Of a stretch of DNA of 64,000 nucleotides, positions 26,075 to 36,830 are shown piece after piece (the stretch's first letter is position 1; each line of letters begins with the position of its first letter). Origin of the DNA: Muribaculaceae bacterium (GTDB lineage: Bacteria; Bacteroidota; Bacteroidia; Bacteroidales; Muribaculaceae); the NCBI GenBank assembly GCA_022510505.1, contig JAFLTL010000012.1, positions 1 to 64,000 of the forward strand. The letters run 5' to 3'. Made by a program: the position numbers and the translations under genes. The notes under the pieces were generated by a model. The model made no database searches. It saw nothing but the letters and a program-made list of their open reading frames with translations, and was not told where the DNA came from.

Positions 26075-26767
26075 CTACACGTCACACAAAGGTTCTGTGA
26101 AATGATGACTATGGGCATGGCACGGTCGGACAGTGTGGTCCACCAAAATGTGACGGTTGGCCATATCGGCTATTCGGGACATCTCATGGGAAACAAGAAC
26201 GATGGTGGTTTCTTTTGAAAGCTTCTCCAGCAGACAATAAGTTTCGTCAATAAAATGACGATCCAGATAACTAAGCGGCTCATCGAGCAGCAGAACTGCA
26301 GGCCGATTTATTATAGCTCTTCCAATCAAAGCACGTTGCAATTGGCCACCCGAAACATTTCCAATCGAATAATCGGCCCGGTCATTCAAATGCAACACGG
26401 AAAGCATTTCTTGTACCCGATTTCGTTTTTCACTTCGGCTCAATGACTTATTGGCAAGAAGTCCGGTGGCTATCACTTCCTTCACAGTCATGGGGAAACG
26501 GGAATCAATGCTATTTTTCTGAGGCAGGTAGCCTATGTCGAGTCGTTGAATCGGGAGTTCGTCCTCTCCCAAATAAATAACCTCTCCTGAAGTTGGTTTC
26601 ATCAGCTTCAGCATGACTTTCAGCAATGTTGTCTTACCGCCCCCATTGGGACCGGTAATGGCAAGAAAATCACCACGATTAACCGTAAGGTTCACCTTGT
26701 CCAGAATGACGCGGCCCTCGCGCCTGACACTAATATCGCGAAGTTCAATTAACGGTGAAGGCATCAT
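26075..26767 (-). CDS. znuC: Zinc-type ABC transporter ATPase (ZnuC-like)
   Basis: An ATP-binding subunit of about 230 aa. I choose ATG 26767 (MMPSPLIELRD); the upstream reading to 26800 lies well inside znuA and adds Cys-rich residues unlike the family. Walker A is GPNGGGKTT, the Q-loop YLPQKN, the signature VSGGQLQRALIGRA, Walker B LLLDEPLSYLD, and the switch His SHEMS. The His-rich end PCHAHSHHF is usual in zinc/manganese uptake ATPases. It overlaps the binding-protein gene by 23 bases. No permease (znuB) gene follows; the next gene is dnaN. Confidence 0.85.
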   Translation of the reverse strand: MMPSPLIELRDISVRREGRVILDKVNLTVNRGDFLAITGPNGGGKTTLLKVMLKLMKPTSGEVIYLGEDELPIQRLDIGYLPQKNSIDSRFPMTVKEVIATGLLANKSLSRSEKRNRVQEMLSVLHLNDRADYSIGNVSGGQLQRALIGRAIINRPAVLLLDEPLSYLDRHFIDETYCLLEKLSKETTIVLVSHEMSRIADMANRHILVDHTVRPCHAHSHHFTEPLCDV

Positions 26768-27635
26768 ACAGCTTTTGCATTTCATCCTCCCATTCCTCAT
26801 TCATGGGATTTATCTCCACCACATTCGTATCAGTTTCCCGGGCAATCGACTTTGCTCGATCATTGTCGAACTCTTTCTGGTAAAAATAAACTTCAGCACC
26901 CGAAGACTTGATTGCATCCATTCGGTCAATCATTCCTTTCACCGACGACTCTTTGCCCGACATCGACAACGCCAATTGAGTCAATCCATAATCCCTGGCA
27001 AAATAGGACAAAGAGGGATGCCATACGATAAAAGACTTTGTCACGTCGGGTCTACTGAAAACTTCACGGAAACAACTGTCGATAGAATCTATTCGTTGCT
27101 CAAGGCGTCCATAGTTTGCTCGGTAAACATCCTCGTTTTTAGAGTCGGCTTTAATCAATGCATTAAGTGTGTTCAATGCGATAATCTTTCCATTGACCGC
27201 ACTGCTCCACATGTGGGGATCAACATCGTGACTGTGGTGCCCGTCATGATGGGAATGGGTTCCTTCCAAAGGCACGATTCCTTCAGTCACTTTCTCAATT
27301 TCAAGACTTGAATTATTGGCTTTCAGCTTGTCAATCAAGGATTTTTCAAAAGCTAATTCTCCCATTGGCAAATAAACAGCAGCCTTCTCAAGAGCCACAA
27401 GCTGATTCATCGAGGGTTCAAAACTCTCGGGATCGGCACTGCTTTCGAGCAGACAGAAGGTATCGACTCGGTCACCGGCTATTGCCTTTATGAAAAAAAG
27501 CTGAGGTGGAATACTGACAGCTATCAAGGGACGGGAGCCAGACCCATCGGAACGCTTGGTTGCACCAGAACATGCCGAAAACAGCCATGCAATTACGGCC
27601 ATTGCCACAGCACCCAATATCAAATTCTTTATCAT
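26745..27635 (-). CDS. znuA: Zinc-binding lipoprotein (ZnuA-like)
   Basis: A metal-binding component of 296 aa of an ABC uptake system. The N-terminus is a lipoprotein signal ending LFSACSG. The cluster A-1 fold is suggested by AVSIPPQLFFIKAIAGDRV, DPESFEPSMNQL, and LPMGELAFEKSL. A His-rich loop (THSHHDGHHSHD) precedes VDPHMWSS, the site that usually gives a metal-binding His. A later HPSLSYFARDYGL holds another probable ligand. It is followed by the overlapping ATPase gene and preceded by a LolC/E-like permease gene 10 bases away. Confidence 0.87.
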   Translation of the reverse strand: MIKNLILGAVAMAVIAWLFSACSGATKRSDGSGSRPLIAVSIPPQLFFIKAIAGDRVDTFCLLESSADPESFEPSMNQLVALEKAAVYLPMGELAFEKSLIDKLKANNSSLEIEKVTEGIVPLEGTHSHHDGHHSHDVDPHMWSSAVNGKIIALNTLNALIKADSKNEDVYRANYGRLEQRIDSIDSCFREVFSRPDVTKSFIVWHPSLSYFARDYGLTQLALSMSGKESSVKGMIDRMDAIKSSGAEVYFYQKEFDNDRAKSIARETDTNVVEINPMNEEWEDEMQKLYDAFTVN

Positions 27636-27645
27636 TTTTCAGTTA

Positions 27646-28863
27646 TTATTCTTCTTTATCATTCTTGGCCGTGCCAAGCGACACAAAGGTAGTCAGAAGC
27701 GACAAAATAACAATAAGGCCTATCACGGCAATCAGGTCGGAAAATTCCACCGAAACAGGATAGGTTGTAATCGAGAGCATCGACACGTCGATATCCGACG
27801 ATAACTTAATCCATCCGAAATGTTGTTGTCCCAAACTGAGCAACAATCCCAAAATGCAACCGGCCAAACCACCTACAAAAGAGACAAGAACTCCCTCCCA
27901 GAGGAACACATTACGGATCATCGAACCAGAAGCACCCATGGTACTTAGCAGGAACATGTTGTTTTTCTTCTCAATAATCAGGATAGTCAATGTTGAAATA
28001 ACATTGAACGAGGCAATCAGCAGAATAAATGCCAACAATGCAAAAGACATCCATTTTTCCATTGCTATCATGTTGAACGACTCGCTGTTCTGGTCGTGAA
28101 TATCCATCACCCTGAACCCGGGCATCTGCAAGCTTTCCTTTAACTTCGTAACAGTTCTTCCGTCAGAGGGGTAAAGATTCAATGAACTGACATAACCATC
28201 CTCATATCCTGCTAAAGCCCTCACCATTTCAATGTCGACTAAAAGTATGTCGTTATCTACCGAAGGATCCTCAGCCTGATATACACCGGCAATGTATAAC
28301 GAATCGGTGCGGAACGTCGATATCATCGACGACGGATTTATTCGTCCATTTCTACGAGGAATCATCACTTTTACACTACGTCCGTCGCCGGGTCGAACCT
28401 CAAGTCCCAAAGCAACACCCACGCTGGCCATACCCCAACTCGTGTAAAGAGTATCACCGACAAACGGGACCCCGTCTATAGTGATGGCATCTACATTGTT
28501 CTCACTTAGGAAATCCTTTGGGGCCCCAATCAGTTCAATAAGCATTGGCGATGTTGTGGTCTGGGCGAAAGCCTTTGTCTCAATAATGGGGATTACAGTC
28601 TTTATTCCTTCACTCGGGAGCAACGATATCACAGAATCGGCAGGAAACAACCTTCGGTCACTCCTTTCGATTCTCAGCGGTGCATCGAACTTGCTCAGCT
28701 TTGATTCGGCGAGTTTTGTAAACCCATTGAAAACCGACAGGATAATGACAATAGCAGCTGTGGCCACGGTCACACATGCCGAAGCCACTGCCGTTATTAT
28801 GTTCACTGCGTTATGGGTCTTCTTTGAGAAGAGATAGCGCAGCGCTATCTTTAATGCAAGCAA
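27646..28863 (-). CDS. LolC/E-like FtsX-family ABC permease
   Basis: A membrane protein of 405 aa of the FtsX/LolE superfamily. Residues 1-45 include RYLFSKKTHNAVNIIT and a first membrane helix, followed by a large periplasmic MacB-like domain. Three membrane helices lie near the C-terminus, around residues 260-290, 310-340 and 370-395. The sequence FNVISTLTILIIEKKNN is typical. In proteobacteria such proteins release lipoproteins from the inner membrane with the LolD ATPase; no LolD is beside it. The start is TTG 28863; no ATG fits. It ends 10 bases before znuA and lies 22 bases after rbfA. Confidence 0.85.
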   Translation of the reverse strand: MLALKIALRYLFSKKTHNAVNIITAVASACVTVATAAIVIILSVFNGFTKLAESKLSKFDAPLRIERSDRRLFPADSVISLLPSEGIKTVIPIIETKAFAQTTTSPMLIELIGAPKDFLSENNVDAITIDGVPFVGDTLYTSWGMASVGVALGLEVRPGDGRSVKVMIPRRNGRINPSSMISTFRTDSLYIAGVYQAEDPSVDNDILLVDIEMVRALAGYEDGYVSSLNLYPSDGRTVTKLKESLQMPGFRVMDIHDQNSESFNMIAMEKWMSFALLAFILLIASFNVISTLTILIIEKKNNMFLLSTMGASGSMIRNVFLWEGVLVSFVGGLAGCILGLLLSLGQQHFGWIKLSSDIDVSMLSITTYPVSVEFSDLIAVIGLIVILSLLTTFVSLGTAKNDKEE

Positions 28864-28885
28864 TTAAAGCTTAAGGCGTTTATTT

Positions 28886-29221
28886 TTAAGATTTCAACAA
28901 ATTATCGATATTCTCAATGTAATCGAGTGAATCGTCAAGGAAGAATGCCAACTCGGGACACTTTCTCAGTTGGAAGCGAACTTTCTGAGCCAATTCATAA
29001 CGAATGGTGCGGGCCGATGCTTTGATAGACTCCAGAACTTCCTCATTATTATCGGAAGGGAAAATTGAAAGATACACCCTTGCAACGCTCAAATCGGGAG
29101 AAACCCTGACATTGGTTACCGATACTATCTTTCCTTGTGTCTTCGCAGTTTGCTGACGGAAAATCTCGCTCAGGTCCTTTTGAATGAGACGGGATATCTT
29201 TGCTTGTCTTGTCGATTCCAT
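28886..29221 (-). CDS. rbfA: 30S ribosome-binding factor RbfA
   Basis: A small KH-fold factor (111 aa) that binds immature 30S subunits and helps process 16S rRNA. It shows RLIQKDLSEIFRQQT near the N-terminus, the strand VSVTNVRVSPDLSVARVYLS, and the helix-strand end IRYELAQKVRFQLRKCPELAFFLDDSLDY. Length and motifs are complete. The start is ATG 29221. It probably heads a unit with the LolC/E-like gene, and an inverted repeat lies just upstream. Confidence 0.92.
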   Translation of the reverse strand: MESTRQAKISRLIQKDLSEIFRQQTAKTQGKIVSVTNVRVSPDLSVARVYLSIFPSDNNEEVLESIKASARTIRYELAQKVRFQLRKCPELAFFLDDSLDYIENIDNLLKS

Positions 29222-29245
29222 AGTAGCAGATTATATTTCGTTTTC

Positions 29246-29298
29246 TATAATTTCAACATGGATGGGTTCAGAAGATCTAAACCCCATTTGAAATTATA
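29246..29298. repeat. Long imperfect inverted repeat upstream of rbfA
   Basis: The outer arms TATAATTTCAA (29246-29256) and TTGAAATTATA (29288-29298) pair perfectly. An interrupted inner stem follows, with CATGG against CCATT and GGGTT against AACCC. The loop is around 29269-29278. No strong T run follows on the minus strand, so it may be a processing site, protein-binding site or weak terminator between the lipoprotein gene and rbfA. Confidence 0.65.
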
Positions 29299-29339
29299 AC
29301 AATCCAAAGGATATTTTTATCGTAACTTCAATAAAAAAA

Positions 29340-30203
29340 TCATTTGGATTGATCGGGAAGCGTACGCGCCTTCTGATCCCTCGCCAACTGGAGTTTTCTC
29401 TCAAGTAGTTCGCGCTGTGCCGACAATCGTTTACCTTTTGTCAGGGAACTAGCCATCAGGTAGGCATCGGCGATAGCCTGAACCTGGTCGGTTTTAAGGT
29501 TGACAGTCTTGGTCTTGCCATCTTCTCCTATAAAAATGAGTTTTATGGGGTCGTTGACGTATCTAACAGCAAAACGTCCAACCGAATCGGTATTCTCTCC
29601 ACTGTAAGTAACCGTTTCAGAGTTATTTATCCGGTAATTCAGTTCATTGTCAAAAGGAACAGTATCGGAATGTGCCTTAACGCCTGACGGTGTCGAAAGA
29701 GAGAATGAAGAATGATGAAGATTGTTGGCGCCGTTGACCTCCGATATCACATAAAATTCACCGTCCTCGCTGACACGTGCTTGAATTCCCGTGCTTTCCA
29801 TGAATTTCGGATCATTTCCATCAATGGCAATCCAATAGCCCTCAACAAGCTGAGGATTCTCAACCTTTTTCATTCTAGGTAGCACTTGATCATAAAGGAT
29901 CTTCATCTCGGCCGACATGGAATCATTATAAGAAATCTCCTTCAACGTCTCTGCTTCGATGACCGATGTTCTTAAGAACATCGCCTGTTTTCTGATTTCG
30001 GTCTCTTTAGGATAGGCAACTGAAATTGAATCAAGCAATTTGAAAGCCTGTTGGAAATTGCCACTGTCAAGTTGGCTCTGTGCCTCGTTTAGAAGCGACT
30101 CGGCAGCCAAACGTTCTTTCGACGGTCCACATCCAAAAAGAACCAGCATCGACATGAGAAGGAAAGACCCTAACAATTTTTTGCCGTAGAACAATTTTTT
30201 CAT
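29340..30203 (-). CDS. Bacteroidota lipoprotein with helical N-terminal segment
   Basis: A lipoprotein of 287 aa, started at ATG 30203, which gives MKKLFYGKKLLGSFLLMSM and the lipobox VLFGCGPSKE. A longer reading from 30233 would overlap the upstream relA-like gene. After the Cys comes a TPR-like helical segment (residues 30-80: LLNEAQSQLDSGNFQQAFKLLDSI), then a beta-rich domain and a charged helical tail with many Arg, Leu and Gln. Function unknown. It lies 10 bases after the relA-like gene and may share its transcript. Confidence 0.7.
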   Translation of the reverse strand: MKKLFYGKKLLGSFLLMSMLVLFGCGPSKERLAAESLLNEAQSQLDSGNFQQAFKLLDSISVAYPKETEIRKQAMFLRTSVIEAETLKEISYNDSMSAEMKILYDQVLPRMKKVENPQLVEGYWIAIDGNDPKFMESTGIQARVSEDGEFYVISEVNGANNLHHSSFSLSTPSGVKAHSDTVPFDNELNYRINNSETVTYSGENTDSVGRFAVRYVNDPIKLIFIGEDGKTKTVNLKTDQVQAIADAYLMASSLTKGKRLSAQRELLERKLQLARDQKARTLPDQSK

Positions 30204-30213
30204 TTTTATATAA

Positions 30214-32436
30214 TTATCTGCTTCGTTCAACATTTTTTACACCTTTTACGGTTTTGATTTTCTTTATCAGGGACTGAAGTGTCTCGTTGTCGGGAACGCC
30301 AACTGTCAGGTGACCCTGGAACAATCCATCGTTGGAATCAATTGAAATAGACCGCAATGTAGTGTTCTTTTCCTTATTGATTATCGAACTGATATTAGTC
30401 ACAATTCCTATATCGTCCTGACCCACAACCCGCAATGTGACACCCAGTTGAGCGCCAATTTTTCCCGACCATTTGGTTCTTATCACCCTATAAGGATATC
30501 GTTCTCTCAAATGGATGGAATTAGGACAGTCGTCGCGATGAATCTTGACTACACCGTCGCTTCCTATGAACCCGAAAACCTTATCGCCATAAATCGGATT
30601 GCAACAACGAGCCAACCGATAGTTGACCCCTCGAAGGTTGTCTCCGATAACTATCACATCATTATTTGTGCTTTGATCGGCGGTTTCATCCAAAGGTTGA
30701 AGCGTGAATTCCTCAGCCGAAACCTTTTCAACCGAATCGGCAGGAGTCAAGAAATTCTGATAGGCATCAATAACAACCGACGCGTCGAGATTTCCGGCAC
30801 CAATTTCTTTATAGAAATCGGTCACCGTCTTATAGCCCAGTTTCTTGATAACCTTCATCAGAATTGCTTCCTCAACCTCAATTTTACGGTTCTTGAAACG
30901 ACGCATCAACATCTCCTTAGCCGGTTCGGCCTGACGGTTGGCCAATTCATTGAGCGACTGCCTTATCTTGTTTCTAGCCTTGGAAGTCACGGCTATTGAC
31001 AACCAGTCCTGTTTTGGAACCTGAGACGATGAAGTCAGAATCTCTACAGTGTCTCCGCTGTGCAGCCTATAGCTTAGTCTCTGATTTTTTCCGTTGACTT
31101 TTCCACCCGTACAGGAACATCCCACGCCCGAGTGTATCGCAAATGCAAAGTCAAGAAGTGTCGCGCCCAATGGCAAACGAAACAAATCTCCCTTGGGAGT
31201 GAATACAAACACTTCTTTGTCGTAGACATCCATTCGGAGATTGAGCATCGAGTTGGTGGGCTCACCCGAATGAGCAGCCTCCAGAATATCCCTCACATTA
31301 CCCATCCAGGCATCAAGGTTATCCTCGGCTTTCACTCCCTTATATTTCCAATGAGCCGCCAAACCTCGTTCGGCTACGAGGTCCATTCGTCGGGTTCTGA
31401 TCTGTACCTCTACCCATCTATGTGCCGGACCATTGACTGTTATGTGCAACGATTCATAACCGTTACTCTTCGGAATTGAGATCCAGTCCTTCATGCGGGA
31501 AGGATTGGGCTGATACATGTCGGTCACTATAGAATAAGCTGTCCAACAGTCACTTTTCTCCTTATCAGGTTCCGAATCAAGAATAATCCTGATAGCGAAC
31601 AAATCATAGATGCGGTCAAGGTCAATACCCTGCTTGAGCATTTTGTTCCAAATGGAATGGATTGACTTTGTCCTACCCTTTATCTCAAACTTCAAGCCGG
31701 CTCTTTCTAATCGTTCCTTGACCGGTTCGATGAATTTCTCAATGTAAGCATCACGCTCTTTCTTCGTTTCGTTAAGCTTTTTTGCTATAACCGAATATGT
31801 TTCTCTCGATGTGTATTTCAAAGACATGTCCTCGAGAGAAGATTTAATCGAATAGAGTCCCAAACGATGAGCTAGAGGCGCATAAAGGAATGACACCTCA
31901 GTTGCGACCTCTTTAACGAAATCATCGTCGGGATGATGATTTATTGTCTCCATCAAAGTCAAGCGGTCGACAATCATGATGACAATCACTCGCAAATCAC
32001 TCGCAAGGGAGAGAAGGAGGTTGCGGAAATTTTCGGAGCGACGAATATTTTTCCTACGATATAGATCGGCCACTTTTACCAAACAGTCAATCAATGCCTT
32101 GACATCTTCTCCCCATCGATTTTCAATTTCTTCTCCCGATAAAAATCCGCGACCATGAAGATTATAAAGCAGAATCGCCAATATCATATTCCTGTCGGGA
32201 GCAACATGTTCACACAAGTTTACCGCAGTCGAAAGATGACGCAGCGCCGGCACTATTCCATGAATATCCCTACGATAATACCCCTGGGCAATCCCTGCGG
32301 TTATGGTCTTTTTCAAATCGGCGAAATCACCCGGCTGAACCAAATCGGAACAATGTCTCATCAGACGTCTGACCAATTCAAACATCTTCTCTTTTTCATC
32401 GTTCTGAAAATATTCCGTAAACTGTGACTCGTCCAT
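30214..32436 (-). CDS. relA: RelA/SpoT homologue with degenerate hydrolase domain
   Basis: A long RSH protein of 740 aa that makes the alarmone (p)ppGpp. The order is HD domain (about 40-165), synthetase (about 240-370), TGS (about 400-465), helical and zinc-finger-like region, and ACT (about 665-740). In the synthetase, GRTKSIHSIWNKM, NGYESLH and AAHWKYKG are kept, and the metal-binding motif is of the R-x-K-D type (SRMKDW). The hydrolase site looks dead: the His-Asp of the HD motif is replaced (ILLYNLHG where LLHD is expected) and the usual DRLHNMRT reads DRLTLMET. The C-terminal CCNPIYGDKVFGFI with HRDDCPN is typical of RSH proteins. It is likely a synthetase only, regulated by stress through TGS/ACT. 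The start is ATG 32436. Confidence 0.88.
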   Translation of the reverse strand: MDESQFTEYFQNDEKEKMFELVRRLMRHCSDLVQPGDFADLKKTITAGIAQGYYRRDIHGIVPALRHLSTAVNLCEHVAPDRNMILAILLYNLHGRGFLSGEEIENRWGEDVKALIDCLVKVADLYRRKNIRRSENFRNLLLSLASDLRVIVIMIVDRLTLMETINHHPDDDFVKEVATEVSFLYAPLAHRLGLYSIKSSLEDMSLKYTSRETYSVIAKKLNETKKERDAYIEKFIEPVKERLERAGLKFEIKGRTKSIHSIWNKMLKQGIDLDRIYDLFAIRIILDSEPDKEKSDCWTAYSIVTDMYQPNPSRMKDWISIPKSNGYESLHITVNGPAHRWVEVQIRTRRMDLVAERGLAAHWKYKGVKAEDNLDAWMGNVRDILEAAHSGEPTNSMLNLRMDVYDKEVFVFTPKGDLFRLPLGATLLDFAFAIHSGVGCSCTGGKVNGKNQRLSYRLHSGDTVEILTSSSQVPKQDWLSIAVTSKARNKIRQSLNELANRQAEPAKEMLMRRFKNRKIEVEEAILMKVIKKLGYKTVTDFYKEIGAGNLDASVVIDAYQNFLTPADSVEKVSAEEFTLQPLDETADQSTNNDVIVIGDNLRGVNYRLARCCNPIYGDKVFGFIGSDGVVKIHRDDCPNSIHLRERYPYRVIRTKWSGKIGAQLGVTLRVVGQDDIGIVTNISSIINKEKNTTLRSISIDSNDGLFQGHLTVGVPDNETLQSLIKKIKTVKGVKNVERSR

Positions 32437-32481: not shown

Positions 32482-33960
32482 TTAATATTTCATATAAATA
32501 AAGGGAACGAGGTCACTCGACCGAGCTTGAATCACAATAAAAATTACAATAGCGACAACCAGTGCCTGTAGGAAAGGTTTCATGCTGTGGAATACATTCA
32601 TGGAGAATGCCGACCATGACTTAGGCAGGAAGTGAAGAACCAAAGCTGCCGCTATGGCCGCAACCACCAAAGGATATCCTGCAAGGAACTGGGGCGCAAT
32701 CTCACCATGGAAATTATACACGATAGCCGTCATCATTTCTTTCACCTTGGTCATCGACTCGGCACGAAAGAACATGAATCCAACAGCAAGTAGATTGAAA
32801 GTGAAGAAAACATTCAAACCGGCACGCCACCATGAAACCTTTGTCTTTACATTGAGATGGAAAACTCTTCGGAAAAATTTATGAAGAATGAGTAACAACC
32901 CGTTCCAAGCCCCCCATAACAAATACATCCAAGAGGCTCCGTGCCATAATCCTCCGATCAGCATAGTATTGAAGAGATTGAAATTGGCACGAGTCCTAGT
33001 CTTGACTCTATTTCCTCCCAACGGAATGTAAAGATAGTCCCTCAGCCACGTTGATAAAGAGATGTGCCAACGACGCCAAAACTCACTAGGATTCTGTGAT
33101 TTGAACGGAGCGTTAAAATTCTCTTTGAAAGCGAATCCCAAAAGAAACGCCAAACCTATCGCCATATCGGAGTAGCCCGAAAAGTCACAGTAAAGCTGAA
33201 TGGCAAAACCATAAACCGCCATCAGGTTCTCGAAACCCGAATAAAGTGAAGGATTATCAAACACTCGGTCCACAAAATTGCCGCTCAGGTAGTCGGCTAT
33301 CACCATTTTCTTTACCAAACCACACATTATCAGGAAAAATCCCACACTGACCATCCTTCGGGTGACAACAGGATTTGACTCGATTTGAGGAAGCATATCC
33401 TTGGCTCTTACTACAGGACCGGCAAGCAAGGGAGGAAAGAATGTCAAAAAGAACGTGTAGTGGAGGAAGTTCTTGCATGGAGCTATCTCGCCACGATAAA
33501 TATCTACAATATAGCTGATGGAACGAAATGTAAAGAAAGATATCCCGGCAGGAAGGATTATGTCAAGAGGATCGAAGCGTTGGGATGAAAAATTGGATAT
33601 TGTTTCAATCAAAAGGTTGAAATATTTGAAATAAATCAACATCCCTATATTCATGATAACATTTATCCCAACTATCACCCGCTTTATCCAGTTGCGGCGG
33701 CTTGCACCCATCCAGAGTCCCAACAGATAATCGCTCACACACACTCCCAGAAGAATCCAACAATAGGAAGCACTTGATTTATAGTAAAAATAGAGAGAGA
33801 ATAGTATGACAAAAATGATTTTGACCCTCGGCAGCTTTGACAAAAGATTATAGAACAGAAGGAAGAAAAGAAACAGAACCATAAACAGCCCCGTGTTGAA
33901 TAACAACGGAGATGATGGATCATACAAAAGCTGATGTTTTATATTCTCGAGAAGTTCCAA
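32482..33960 (-). CDS. MBOAT O-acyltransferase (AlgI-like)
   Basis: A multi-pass membrane protein of 492 aa from the membrane-bound O-acyltransferase family. It moves an acyl group across the inner membrane for O-acetylation of a glycan. Typical family stretches are ILPAGISFFTFRSISYIVDIY, FFPPLLAGPVVRAKDMLPQI, NFNAPFKSQNPSEFWRRWHI, SLSTWLRDYLYIPLGGNR, and the catalytic His in GGLWHGASWMYLLWG. About ten or more membrane helices are evident. The start must be TTG 33960, as the nearest internal ATG would remove conserved N-terminal sequence. It lies 15 bases after an SGNH gene. Candidate substrates are peptidoglycan or an exported polysaccharide. Confidence 0.9.
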   Translation of the reverse strand: MELLENIKHQLLYDPSSPLLFNTGLFMVLFLFFLLFYNLLSKLPRVKIIFVILFSLYFYYKSSASYCWILLGVCVSDYLLGLWMGASRRNWIKRVIVGINVIMNIGMLIYFKYFNLLIETISNFSSQRFDPLDIILPAGISFFTFRSISYIVDIYRGEIAPCKNFLHYTFFLTFFPPLLAGPVVRAKDMLPQIESNPVVTRRMVSVGFFLIMCGLVKKMVIADYLSGNFVDRVFDNPSLYSGFENLMAVYGFAIQLYCDFSGYSDMAIGLAFLLGFAFKENFNAPFKSQNPSEFWRRWHISLSTWLRDYLYIPLGGNRVKTRTRANFNLFNTMLIGGLWHGASWMYLLWGAWNGLLLILHKFFRRVFHLNVKTKVSWWRAGLNVFFTFNLLAVGFMFFRAESMTKVKEMMTAIVYNFHGEIAPQFLAGYPLVVAAIAAALVLHFLPKSWSAFSMNVFHSMKPFLQALVVAIVIFIVIQARSSDLVPFIYMKY

Positions 33961-33975
33961 CCGCCAAGCAATTAG

Positions 33976-35304
33976 TTAATCATCTTTTAATGCAACATCG
34001 ACAAGCAAAGAGCTCGACAAAGCTCGATCCAAGGCCGAGTGAAAGAGAATAGCAGCAAGTTCATAACCCGCAACAGTGTTGTGAACCCTATCTTTGTTCA
34101 AAAGAGAATTCTCAATCCATAAGTCGGAAGCTCCATCGCCTCCGGCTACTTCGAACCAGTCGTAAACCGGAATTTTGTGGTCACGTCCATATTTGAGCAG
34201 GACATTACGCAACTTGTGACAATTCTCGACCACAACATAGGTCTTGGGAGATTTCCTAGACTTACCTTTTCGTACACCTCGTTGACATTCCTTTGGTGTC
34301 GTCAGAAGTATTTTTGACTCGGGATTTTCCTTTTTTAAAGAAGTTACCAATCGGTCGACCTCCTTGTAAAAATCTTCCGATGACAACTTACCGAAAGCAT
34401 CATTAGTTCCCAGGCTGACGATTATCAGATCGGGATAAAGGGTCGAGACCCCCGAACTGAAATCAGCAAGAGCATTGTAGGTGGAATAACACGCTCCATT
34501 ATTTCCGATGACATGATATATGATACCATTTTCCTCGGATGATAGCATCACTCCATGGATTGTTGCAGAGTCATCGGTCGACAAGGACAATTTCAGAGAA
34601 GGGGTCATACGGCTCAGAAAAACATCGGTGTAATTGTCATCGGGCATCAAATCAATCCAATATTCCATCGATCGGTCTTCCAAATCCCTTACACCCGATA
34701 TCTTCAACTTGCCACTGTGGTAAATCCTGATGAACTTAAACAGACTCTCACCATGAGGTTCAGTGTCTACTATCAATTCAAAATTCTTGTTTGCAGGTGT
34801 AACACCGATTCCGCAGAAATTGACAGGAGTAACCCACGGTTTCTTTAGCAGCTTGGATGACTTTACCTTTGAATTTATCGTCATACGATAATCAACAGGC
34901 TCGTTAGTACCTGCAAGTCGGAAAGGCACAATCAATCCTCGGCCTCCGTCACCATGTTCTTGTTGAAGCAGGGCTCTCACATGTCCCGTGGCAATATCGG
35001 CCTGTAAATGGGAGTCTCCTATGTGTACAATAGAAAAGTTCCCGTCATGGGAGTTCTGATAGAGATGTTTGATTTCGGTCCAATCATCACCGTTCATCTG
35101 AATGACATTGGCGGCATGGTGTATAAAATCGAATGCGTTTAGGTCAACTTCCTTTACTATATTCTCAATTGTGACAAACCCTTCCCTCAAGGTGTCGGAG
35201 TCAATATAGTTCGAGTCATTTACAAGACTGTCAACAGGCAGCTGAGCGGCCGGGAAAAACCTTACCGTCAACATCAGAAACAATATAACAGCCTTTAAAT
35301 TCAT
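33976..35304 (-). CDS. SGNH/GDSL-family protein, likely glycan O-acetylation
   Basis: An exported SGNH-fold protein of 442 aa with a signal peptide (MNLKAVILFLMLTVRFFPAAQ). Block I is IVHIGDSHLQADI (Ser nucleophile), block III is VSLGTNDAFG, and block V is DRVHNTVAG, giving the catalytic Asp and His. All three are intact. Between them lies a carbohydrate-binding-like beta-rich segment. Together with MBOAT it resembles PatB/AlgX-type transferases, which receive the acyl group in the periplasm and place it on a glycan. Its ATG overlaps the stop of the next SGNH gene (TGA) by four bases, so the pair is coupled. Confidence 0.85.
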   Translation of the reverse strand: MNLKAVILFLMLTVRFFPAAQLPVDSLVNDSNYIDSDTLREGFVTIENIVKEVDLNAFDFIHHAANVIQMNGDDWTEIKHLYQNSHDGNFSIVHIGDSHLQADIATGHVRALLQQEHGDGGRGLIVPFRLAGTNEPVDYRMTINSKVKSSKLLKKPWVTPVNFCGIGVTPANKNFELIVDTEPHGESLFKFIRIYHSGKLKISGVRDLEDRSMEYWIDLMPDDNYTDVFLSRMTPSLKLSLSTDDSATIHGVMLSSEENGIIYHVIGNNGACYSTYNALADFSSGVSTLYPDLIIVSLGTNDAFGKLSSEDFYKEVDRLVTSLKKENPESKILLTTPKECQRGVRKGKSRKSPKTYVVVENCHKLRNVLLKYGRDHKIPVYDWFEVAGGDGASDLWIENSLLNKDRVHNTVAGYELAAILFHSALDRALSSSLLVDVALKDD

Positions 35305-36830
35305 TTCAATGACTTTTCCAATGCCTCTACAAACAACTTCGAAAGTCGGTTGCCTCCCTTAAATGAGAGGTGAATATAGTCTTTGTTGATCTCCTTGTTT
35401 TTACTCCACTCAACAACCGCATCCTCGCCACCCATAGCCGCACGCGTGTCCCAGAACAGACTTCCCGTTTCACGAGCAACACGTCGCTGTTCATTTATCA
35501 TATTCGGAACCGTCGACATCGAATGAATTTCACTCCCACGTTTTTCTCCACGGTCACCTATTCCCATAATAAGGATTACTGCTTCGGGATACAATTCCTT
35601 GATGTGATTGACAACTGTAATCATCTGGTTCCCATAATGTGTGTAATTGGTCTGTTGGGAACTCAAGGCATTTATTCCGAACTCAAGAATAATCAAATCA
35701 TAACTCAGTTCATCAGAAGTCTCTTCAATAATCGTTTTGCTTATTTCATCATGTCGGATACCCGCATATCCTCTTATGGACATATTATCGACGGCGACAC
35801 CGTTGTCACCGTCAAGATAGCATCCAAGGAAAATGGTTCCGGGCGTTATCCGGTCGATTCTAATGCGGGAAGTAGGTTCTTCGAGATCAATAACATGAAT
35901 GCTATCGGAGGGAGAATAGGAGTATTCACTCGACGAGATGTTTTCTCCTTTCCCTATTCTGACTCTCAGGGATCCACCGTCGGGTGTCTTAAAGAATAGA
36001 CGACTTCGGTCCCAGCTTCCTGCATTTGCAATTTTGGAGCCTTCGAACGTTGTAGCCGCACCTTCGTTGGCAACCGATATAACACCCTGAAGCATTGCGT
36101 TTTTCTTCCCTATCTTCGTTCGAAAATCATGATTCTCCCAACTCGAACATGACTGATTGACCGAACGACGAAAACCCGGAATGTCACTGTGGGCCGAAAC
36201 ATAGCCAACACCATTGCCTCCATATTTTTCCTGAAGCTGAGATCGCAAAGTTTCGGTAAAAATATCACCTTCGATATAGGAATCACCCAGCACTGCCATT
36301 CTAACCAGGCGTCTCCCCGCTTCATCGAAAGACCGCTTCAGATTTCTCAGGTTGATATTCCCACGAGAATAGTCCTCTATTCGATTATCATATTCAACAG
36401 GCGCGTTTTCATTTTCCTCTATCCGGGAGGTTTGCTGTAAAGCGGCATCATTCTCAATCTCAGTTTTATGTAAATCTACATCGTGAGAAATGTTTTCGTT
36501 TGACATCTCTAACTCCTCCGCCTCATCATTGTCTTCATCGGATTGACTTTTCAATTCGTCCTCCTCATCTGACAAATTCATCTCGTGTTTTTCATCATTA
36601 ACCGGAACTTCATCTACGCGAGTGTCCAATAGAGCCAGATCAGGGTCAAGATAAACAGTAGCCGAAGTTTCCTGAGGTAAACGCGCACCACCCGGTCGCA
36701 CATCGGCCCAGAGGTCGAAAGATTTAAAACGGCCTTTTGTCAAATCCTCCCATCCCAGCAACGAAAGAGCACCCAGTATCAGAATGGCTACAAAAAGTAT
36801 GAAAAAAGAATTGCCTCTATCAGACTTCAT
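35301..36830 (-). CDS. Membrane-anchored SGNH-family protein with degenerate block III
   Basis: A protein of 509 aa with one N-terminal membrane helix (residues 8-28) that tethers a periplasmic domain. A strongly acidic, Asn/Glu-rich disordered stretch follows (about residues 60-150). The SGNH domain starts with RMAVLGDSYIEGDI (block I with Ser). Block III reads LEFGINALSS, with Ala in place of the Asp after the conserved Asn, and block V is DYIHLSFKG with Asp and His. The protein may still be active, or be a non-catalytic partner of the 442 aa protein. It begins at ATG 36830, overlapping the menF stop by four bases. Confidence 0.8.
   Translation of the reverse strand: MKSDRGNSFFILFVAILILGALSLLGWEDLTKGRFKSFDLWADVRPGGARLPQETSATVYLDPDLALLDTRVDEVPVNDEKHEMNLSDEEDELKSQSDEDNDEAEELEMSNENISHDVDLHKTEIENDAALQQTSRIEENENAPVEYDNRIEDYSRGNINLRNLKRSFDEAGRRLVRMAVLGDSYIEGDIFTETLRSQLQEKYGGNGVGYVSAHSDIPGFRRSVNQSCSSWENHDFRTKIGKKNAMLQGVISVANEGAATTFEGSKIANAGSWDRSRLFFKTPDGGSLRVRIGKGENISSSEYSYSPSDSIHVIDLEEPTSRIRIDRITPGTIFLGCYLDGDNGVAVDNMSIRGYAGIRHDEISKTIIEETSDELSYDLIILEFGINALSSQQTNYTHYGNQMITVVNHIKELYPEAVILIMGIGDRGEKRGSEIHSMSTVPNMINEQRRVARETGSLFWDTRAAMGGEDAVVEWSKNKEINKDYIHLSFKGGNRLSKLFVEALEKSLK

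Follow-up and report, generated by a model that had tools for sequence, protein, structure and literature searches.

A predicted synthetase-only long RSH with a degenerate hydrolase domain and a basic R-x-K-D motif in a Muribaculaceae genome, and its hydrolase-bearing partner

Introduction

The closest described counterparts of the gene studied here are the paired long RSH proteins of Porphyromonas gingivalis and Bacteroides thetaiotaomicron. In the passages of Atkinson 2011 (PMC3153485) that deal with these organisms, an RSH named RshB is reported from Bacteroides, Porphyromonas and Parabacteroides; it carries the label [HS] and has a long branch in the HD tree, as does RelA. According to the relevant sections of a second paper (PMC6994654), many of the key residues are missing from the hydrolase domains of both Pg_Rel and BT_0700; it was concluded there that Rel is a monofunctional synthase and that RshB (PGN_1757, BT_3998) is bifunctional. 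In P. gingivalis more ppGpp came from the bifunctional copy, and the synthase-only copy was credited with basal levels (same sections of PMC6994654). For B. thetaiotaomicron, a passage of PMC10746209 likewise gives BT0700 as a synthase and BT3998 as having both activities, and refers to duplication and loss of the hydrolase function. As far as these extracts go, the name RshB looks to have been swapped between papers, since PMC6994654 applies it to the bifunctional copy and the divergent HD described by Atkinson fits the other one.

Genetic information on the pair comes from the same source. A deletion of the bifunctional gene of P. gingivalis was obtained with the other RSH unmutated, and the single mutants were without phenotype in the figure described; bt3998, on the other hand, was reported there to be recalcitrant to transposon insertion in B. 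thetaiotaomicron (PMC6994654, in the portions used here).

A motif in the synthetase domain has been linked to the nucleotide used, the proposed rule being R-x-K-D for GTP and E-x-D-D for GDP (PMC3153485, citing Sajish 2009, in the part consulted). The RelA of Francisella, with E-x-S-D, is a published departure from this rule, as its substrate specificity and kinetics are nearer to those of the bifunctional enzymes (excerpt of PMC4708007). In the text of PMC6994654 drawn on here ppGpp was the sole product detected in P. gingivalis, and a 1979 title cited in PMC10746209 mentions tetra- and pentaphosphates in B. thetaiotaomicron. In literature passages searched by term, with supplements outside the scope, we found no statement on the motif of the Bacteroidales copies.

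In this study we focused on an RSH gene in a stretch of 64,000 nucleotides from a Muribaculaceae bacterium (GCA_022510505.1, contig JAFLTL010000012.1, positions 1 to 64,000), the whole of which is referred to as the window.

Materials and Methods

RSH copies were typed in 59 genomes, drawn from the window's own genome, its family and its order. Two pieces at contig ends (G045:C320 and G015:C124) were left out, as were the fragment L072, rows L001, L003, L004 and L005, which repeat the two genes of the window's own genome, and the partial E. coli genes L133 and L134. The eight hydrolase residues R44, H53, H77, D78, E81, D82, D144 and N148 follow what we take to be the RelSeq numbering, and were placed by spacing only. 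A row was called hydrolase-dead when not all of H53, H77, D78 and D144 were kept; the lack of dead rows with all four thus follows from the definition and carries no weight as evidence. Two rows that are dead in this sense and lie outside the clade described below, L113 and E. coli RelA, are excluded from the 63 rows counted for it; L065 is probably the same gene as L008, with equal score and key residues, and the 63 rows thus include at least one near-duplicate.

The main tree was built from 69 chosen rows with the HD and motif columns removed. Not included were the long-branch rows L113, L114, L117, L119 and L120, rows L070, L071 and L118, and the greater part of the window's family. Conservation was compared as mean pairwise identity in 50 genomes in which each of the two copies is full-length; these genomes are related, so the counts of genomes are not independent. 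The structure model was built from 42 aligned sequences.

Results

Gene and domain layout

The gene lies on the minus strand (30214-32436) and encodes 740 amino acids and a stop codon, with no internal stop in the ORF list; in the genome search the open frame around the RSH at this locus is 747 codons. The protein passes the Pfam cut-offs for HD_4, RelA_SpoT, TGS, RelA_AH_RIS and ACT_4 and has the architecture of a long RSH, and TIGR00691 scores 502 bits against a cut-off of 499.2. The domains, all on the minus strand, are a pseudo-hydrolase (HD) domain placed by Pfam and alignment (residues 38-188; 31873-32325), a SYNTH domain matched by PF04607 (residues 254-367; 31336-31677), a TGS domain (residues 409-468; 31033-31212), the ZFD/RIS zinc-finger motif ARCC...HRDDC with C611, C612, H633 and C637 (30526-30612), and a Pfam-defined ACT/RRM domain (residues 666-738; 30223-30441). 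The closest named matches, at 61-64% identity, are from MAGs labelled Muribaculaceae or uncultured Bacteroidales.

Of the neighbouring genes, those downstream of the RSH (26075-30233, minus strand) comprise a lipoprotein-like ORF with no Pfam match, rbfA, an FtsX-like permease, a ZnuA-type zinc-binding protein and an ABC ATPase. At 32482-36830, also on the minus strand, an MBOAT O-acyltransferase stands beside two GDSL-type hydrolase-like genes, a group that resembles a surface O-acetylation cassette.

The hydrolase site

The first-pass annotation had read L-Y-N-L at the HD position and D-R-L-T-L-M for D-R-L-H-N-M and described the hydrolase as dead-looking, and alignment with intact RSH proteins bears this out. 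LLYNLHG (residues 89-95; 32152-32172, minus strand) replaces LLHDxxED, with H77 changed to Y91 and D78 to N92, and DRLTLM (residues 157-162; 31951-31968, minus strand) replaces DRLHNM, with N148 changed to L161. In the MAFFT alignment with intact relatives R44 corresponds to D57, H53 to R66, E81 to G95 and D82 to R96. Seven of the eight residues are therefore gone, and only D144, as D157, is retained; in the same alignment E. coli RelA has none of the eight and E. coli SpoT all of them. The degenerate domain still scores 71.6 or 75.5 bits with HD_4 in two scans, against 157.5 or 161.2 for the intact paralogue, and since the loss is in addition common to the entire orthologous clade, the degeneration is not a matter of chance. 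Three of the four ligands persist in 7 of the 63 dead rows (two belong to the window's family and five elsewhere in the order), which suggests from the alignment that the site was lost stepwise.

The structure model has a mean pLDDT of 81.9 and a pTM of 0.59, with pLDDT below 50 at residues 1-5, 317-326, 360-400 and 567-591. It is helical throughout the HD region, and its catalytic half matches Rel (TMt 0.88 and rmsd 3.1 with S. aureus Rel 7oiw_A; 0.84 with 1vj7_A). Compared at full length with RelA/SpoT structures the rmsd is large (17-32), so the placement of domains in the model is not trustworthy.

It could be argued that other His and Asp residues form a metal site at a new position, with which the HD domain would still be able to hydrolyse (p)ppGpp. 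Five such residues are well conserved in the 42 close relatives and differ from what is found in the 96 HD-intact rows: D111 (42/42; D in 8/96), H168 (41/42; M or L in 96/96), D81 (40/42; D in 15/96), H167 (38/42; rare or unseen in the intact rows) and D57 (35/42; R in 96/96). None of these, however, is at a metal-ligand position, D57 being at that of R44, and in the model the newly conserved residues would be placed in loops or where helices begin. H53, H77, D78, E81, D82, R44 and N148 are all lost in the window protein and their positions vary widely in the clade, in every one of the 50 genomes compared the HD domain is less conserved than the paralogue's, and the window's genome has a second RSH whose hydrolase site is intact. 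Among the H, D, E and C columns conserved in the dead copies nothing pointed to a metal site that had moved, and hydrolysis by such a site is, in our view, very unlikely. It is possible that D81, D111, H167 and H168 of the pseudo-HD domain mark a new interface or ligand site; the retention of a pseudo-HD as an inactive regulatory domain is described for specialised copies of this kind in a passage of PMC13376610.

The synthetase domain and its motif

All nine synthetase residues that were checked (R255, K257, S261, D278, K323, Y327, H331, E343 and Q345) are present in the window protein. The R-x-K-D motif that had been read in the synthetase is also there, as SRMKD at residues 313-317 (31486-31500, minus strand), a basic acceptor-specificity motif with R314, K316 and D317. 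E. coli RelA has E-F-D-D in the columns where the window protein has R-M-K-D (residues 314-317), so the E-x-D-D feature is missing from the latter.

The earlier reading had implied that R-x-K-D together with a dead hydrolase is an anomaly. In Bacteroidales it is instead the rule, as the motif is basic in all 63 rows of the hydrolase-dead clade (R-x-K-D in 40, R-x-R-D in 23) and E-x-D-D occurs in none. E-x-D-D thus does not follow from the loss of the hydrolase. The 56 bifunctional rows from the 59 genomes have R-x-R-D (53) or R-x-R-N (3), and beyond the order all 29 rows that were typed have R-x-R-D. On the 69-row tree, from which the motif columns had been left out, there are 4 changes between K and R. 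By these counts R-x-R-D is the usual state among the typed rows of the phylum, and the K of the window protein is a later local change.

A second RSH in the same genome

A check for a second RSH gene, as the first-pass annotation had advised, found one. With the PF04607 and PF13328 models two RSH genes are present in the genome of the window (2.14 Mb, 55 contigs, 91.75% complete), and a third was not found with either model in this assembly. The second gene, on contig C53 (L002:700-3012), encodes 770 amino acids and has the motif R-T-R-D. It has the same architecture as the window protein, as do the bifunctional Bacteroidota Rel proteins, and it also has all nine synthetase residues; the difference lies in the hydrolase residues, of which it has eight of eight and the window copy one. 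Identity between the two copies is 93/178 positions in SYNTH and only 41/150 in HD.

Distribution

A hydrolase-dead, synthetase-intact copy was found in 55 of the 59 genomes. In 54 of these it is accompanied by a copy that has the four metal ligands and that by residues is bifunctional in 52 and hydrolase-only in 2; in the exception, G045, the other RSH copy is seen only as a piece at a contig end. The remaining 4 of the 59 genomes have a single bifunctional copy. The pairing of a synthetase-only copy with a hydrolase-bearing one is standard for the order. In a wider sample of the phylum (118 genomes including the window's own) there was one match in 113 genomes and two in 5, and the best-scoring 29 loci besides its own, when typed, had 8/8 hydrolase residues in every case.

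Some genomes depart from this arrangement. A third long RSH with frames of 631-664 amino acids is present in 8 of the 59 genomes (L121-L128, in G057, G015, G011, G017, G031, G013, G025 and G004). Its hydrolase residues are intact and its synthetase residues broken, with R241 changed in 7/8, D264 changed in 8/8, Q325 replaced by H in 8/8 and the motif altered to S/G-x-x-N in 8/8; by residues it is hydrolase-only, and it occurs beside the other two copies (three were scanned with Pfam). This third type was not found in the genome of the window with the PF04607 and PF13328 models. In G037 (L117, L120) and G047 (L114, L113, L094) the search for a bifunctional RSH found none; one copy has intact HD ligands and broken synthetase residues and the others have intact synthetase residues and a broken HD, which would be a complete split, read with caution as to alignment given the long branches. 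A hydrolase-dead RSH from a contig titled as a Calditrichaeota MAG (L070) is nested inside the Bacteroidales clade, and is either a mis-binned contig or a transfer.

Descent and reciprocal conservation

The main tree contains two clades, one with the 29 hydrolase-dead rows (support 100/99) and one with the 23 bifunctional Bacteroidales rows (99/95). In a second tree, with the HD columns removed and rooted on E. coli RelA and SpoT, 37 window-type rows form one clade (SH-aLRT 100), and in both trees the clade with the window type is made up solely of dead-HD rows. The two copies are not sisters in the free tree; forcing them together costs 15.8 log-likelihood units with p-AU 0.06, so the duplication may or may not have taken place inside the order.

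Comparison of the two copies in the same 50 genomes gave opposite patterns for different domains. Mean identity in HD was 0.380 for the window type and 0.780 for the bifunctional copy, with the window type higher in 0/50 genomes, while in ZFD it was 0.594 against 0.470 (higher in 50/50) and in ACT 0.526 against 0.403 (46/50). The values were closer for SYNTH (0.665 against 0.652; 33/50) and TGS (0.639 against 0.688; 6/50). A smaller set of 22 genomes, in which the window's family is under-sampled, had the same directions (HD 0/22, ZFD 21/22, ACT 16/22, SYNTH 17/22, TGS 6/22). The window type thus retains the synthetase and zinc finger as its HD domain relaxes, and for HD and zinc finger the reverse holds in the partner; TGS is outside this pattern.

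H435 in the TGS domain of the window protein is the equivalent of E. coli RelA H432, the tRNA 3'-CCA contact, which has been tested by mutation (PMC7058999, in the part seen). This position is H in 63/63 dead rows, which also keep the CC...H...C residues of the zinc finger (with one X). In the bifunctional copies it is H in 56/56, and the zinc-finger cysteines are present in 54 or 55 of 56, the rest being gaps. As both copies keep the His and the cysteines, ribosome sensing is not confined to window-type proteins, and neither copy can be called devoid of tRNA reading.

The loss of the HD catalytic residues might be taken to mean that the gene is a decaying pseudogene or a non-functional duplicate. 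Against this, the frame is intact, the mean identities of SYNTH, TGS and ZFD given above are held across the 50 genomes, the nine synthetase residues (with K304 as K or R) are found in 63/63 dead rows and the copy itself persists in 55/59 genomes; moreover, in sections of PMC6994654, P. gingivalis without the counterpart gene had less ppGpp than its parent. Decay of the gene is hardly credible on this evidence. Nor do we give any real weight to acquisition by transfer of a RelA of the beta/gamma-proteobacterial kind: the functions are split alike, D replaces R44 in E. coli RelA too, and of the solved structures those of RelA chains on the ribosome match best in sequence, but the window protein is without E-x-D-D, its near relatives are from its own family, and it groups with Bacteroidota Rel in both trees (in the second of which E. 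coli RelA and SpoT are the only outsiders, used as root).

Discussion

The window gene very probably encodes a synthetase-only, RelA-like long RSH with a non-catalytic HD domain, putatively the orthologue of BT_0700 and Pg_Rel (the BT_0700/PGN_0465 type), with hydrolysis left to the partner encoded on C53. The loss and retention of residues, the paralogue, the single clade and the reciprocal conservation on which this rests are all features of sequence, and from them we infer the catalytic activities, the dependence on ribosomes and the nucleotide used. An ancestral bifunctional Rel probably duplicated, after which the copy in the window would have lost the hydrolase site but not the HD fold, now a non-catalytic module, and would have kept the synthetase and the TGS and zinc-finger parts; with the latter two, E. 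coli RelA reads uncharged tRNA at the ribosome. The C53 copy would have kept the hydrolase, with a looser zinc-finger/ACT region. During amino-acid starvation the window protein would likely bind stalled ribosomes and make (p)ppGpp, and the C53 enzyme would remove it and probably also make some. If P. gingivalis is a guide, a simple role for the window type as the main starvation synthetase does not fit the shares of ppGpp there, which were larger for the bifunctional than for the synthase-only enzyme.

It had also been proposed that a cell with this gene would need a separate hydrolase. A partner gene is indeed nearly always present, but P. gingivalis could be deprived by mutation of the one hydrolase predicted for it, according to the passages cited from PMC6994654. 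The separate hydrolase is therefore a genomic pattern and not a proven requirement.

The rule taken from E. coli and mycobacterial enzymes, by which E-x-D-D denotes a synthetase-only protein and R-x-K-D a bifunctional one, is unfit for annotating the RSH proteins of Bacteroidota. We suggest, tentatively and with some doubt, that the switch to E-x-D-D is an event independent of the loss of hydrolysis, that these synthetase-only enzymes with the basic motif prefer GTP and so make pppGpp if the motif sets the acceptor, and that on the window's side of the clade the pseudo-HD domain, having gained D81, D111, H167 and H168 as conserved residues, may be a new regulatory site. If the GTP reading were true, the reported absence of pppGpp in P. 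gingivalis would be due to rapid conversion, or else the motif would have no role in specificity in this phylum. Enzymes of the window type could serve as a simple test system for control by the motif of GTP versus GDP use.

A hydrolase-lacking copy has been published for both P. gingivalis and B. thetaiotaomicron, so the gene in the window belongs to a kind already described. BT_0700/PGN_0465, named Rel in PMC6994654 and apparently the RshB of Atkinson 2011, is by the accounts in these extracts a long RSH without many of the hydrolase residues and a synthase, like the window protein, and it is paired with the bifunctional BT_3998/PGN_1757 as the window gene is with the C53 copy. No difference was found between the two in a comparison by description only. 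The TGS structure of P. gingivalis PG1808 (2kmm) scores 81.2 bits with the C53 protein and 67.3 with the window copy, an indirect and weak sign that assumes PG1808 to be the bifunctional gene. E. coli RelA is also similar to the window protein in its dead HD domain (0/8), active-type SYNTH, TGS with H432, zinc-finger residues and change of R44 to D; it differs in having E-x-D-D where the window protein has R-x-K-D, and the duplication is judged to have been independent. The window pair is a second, apparently independent division of labour of the RelA/SpoT kind, one that is already in print.
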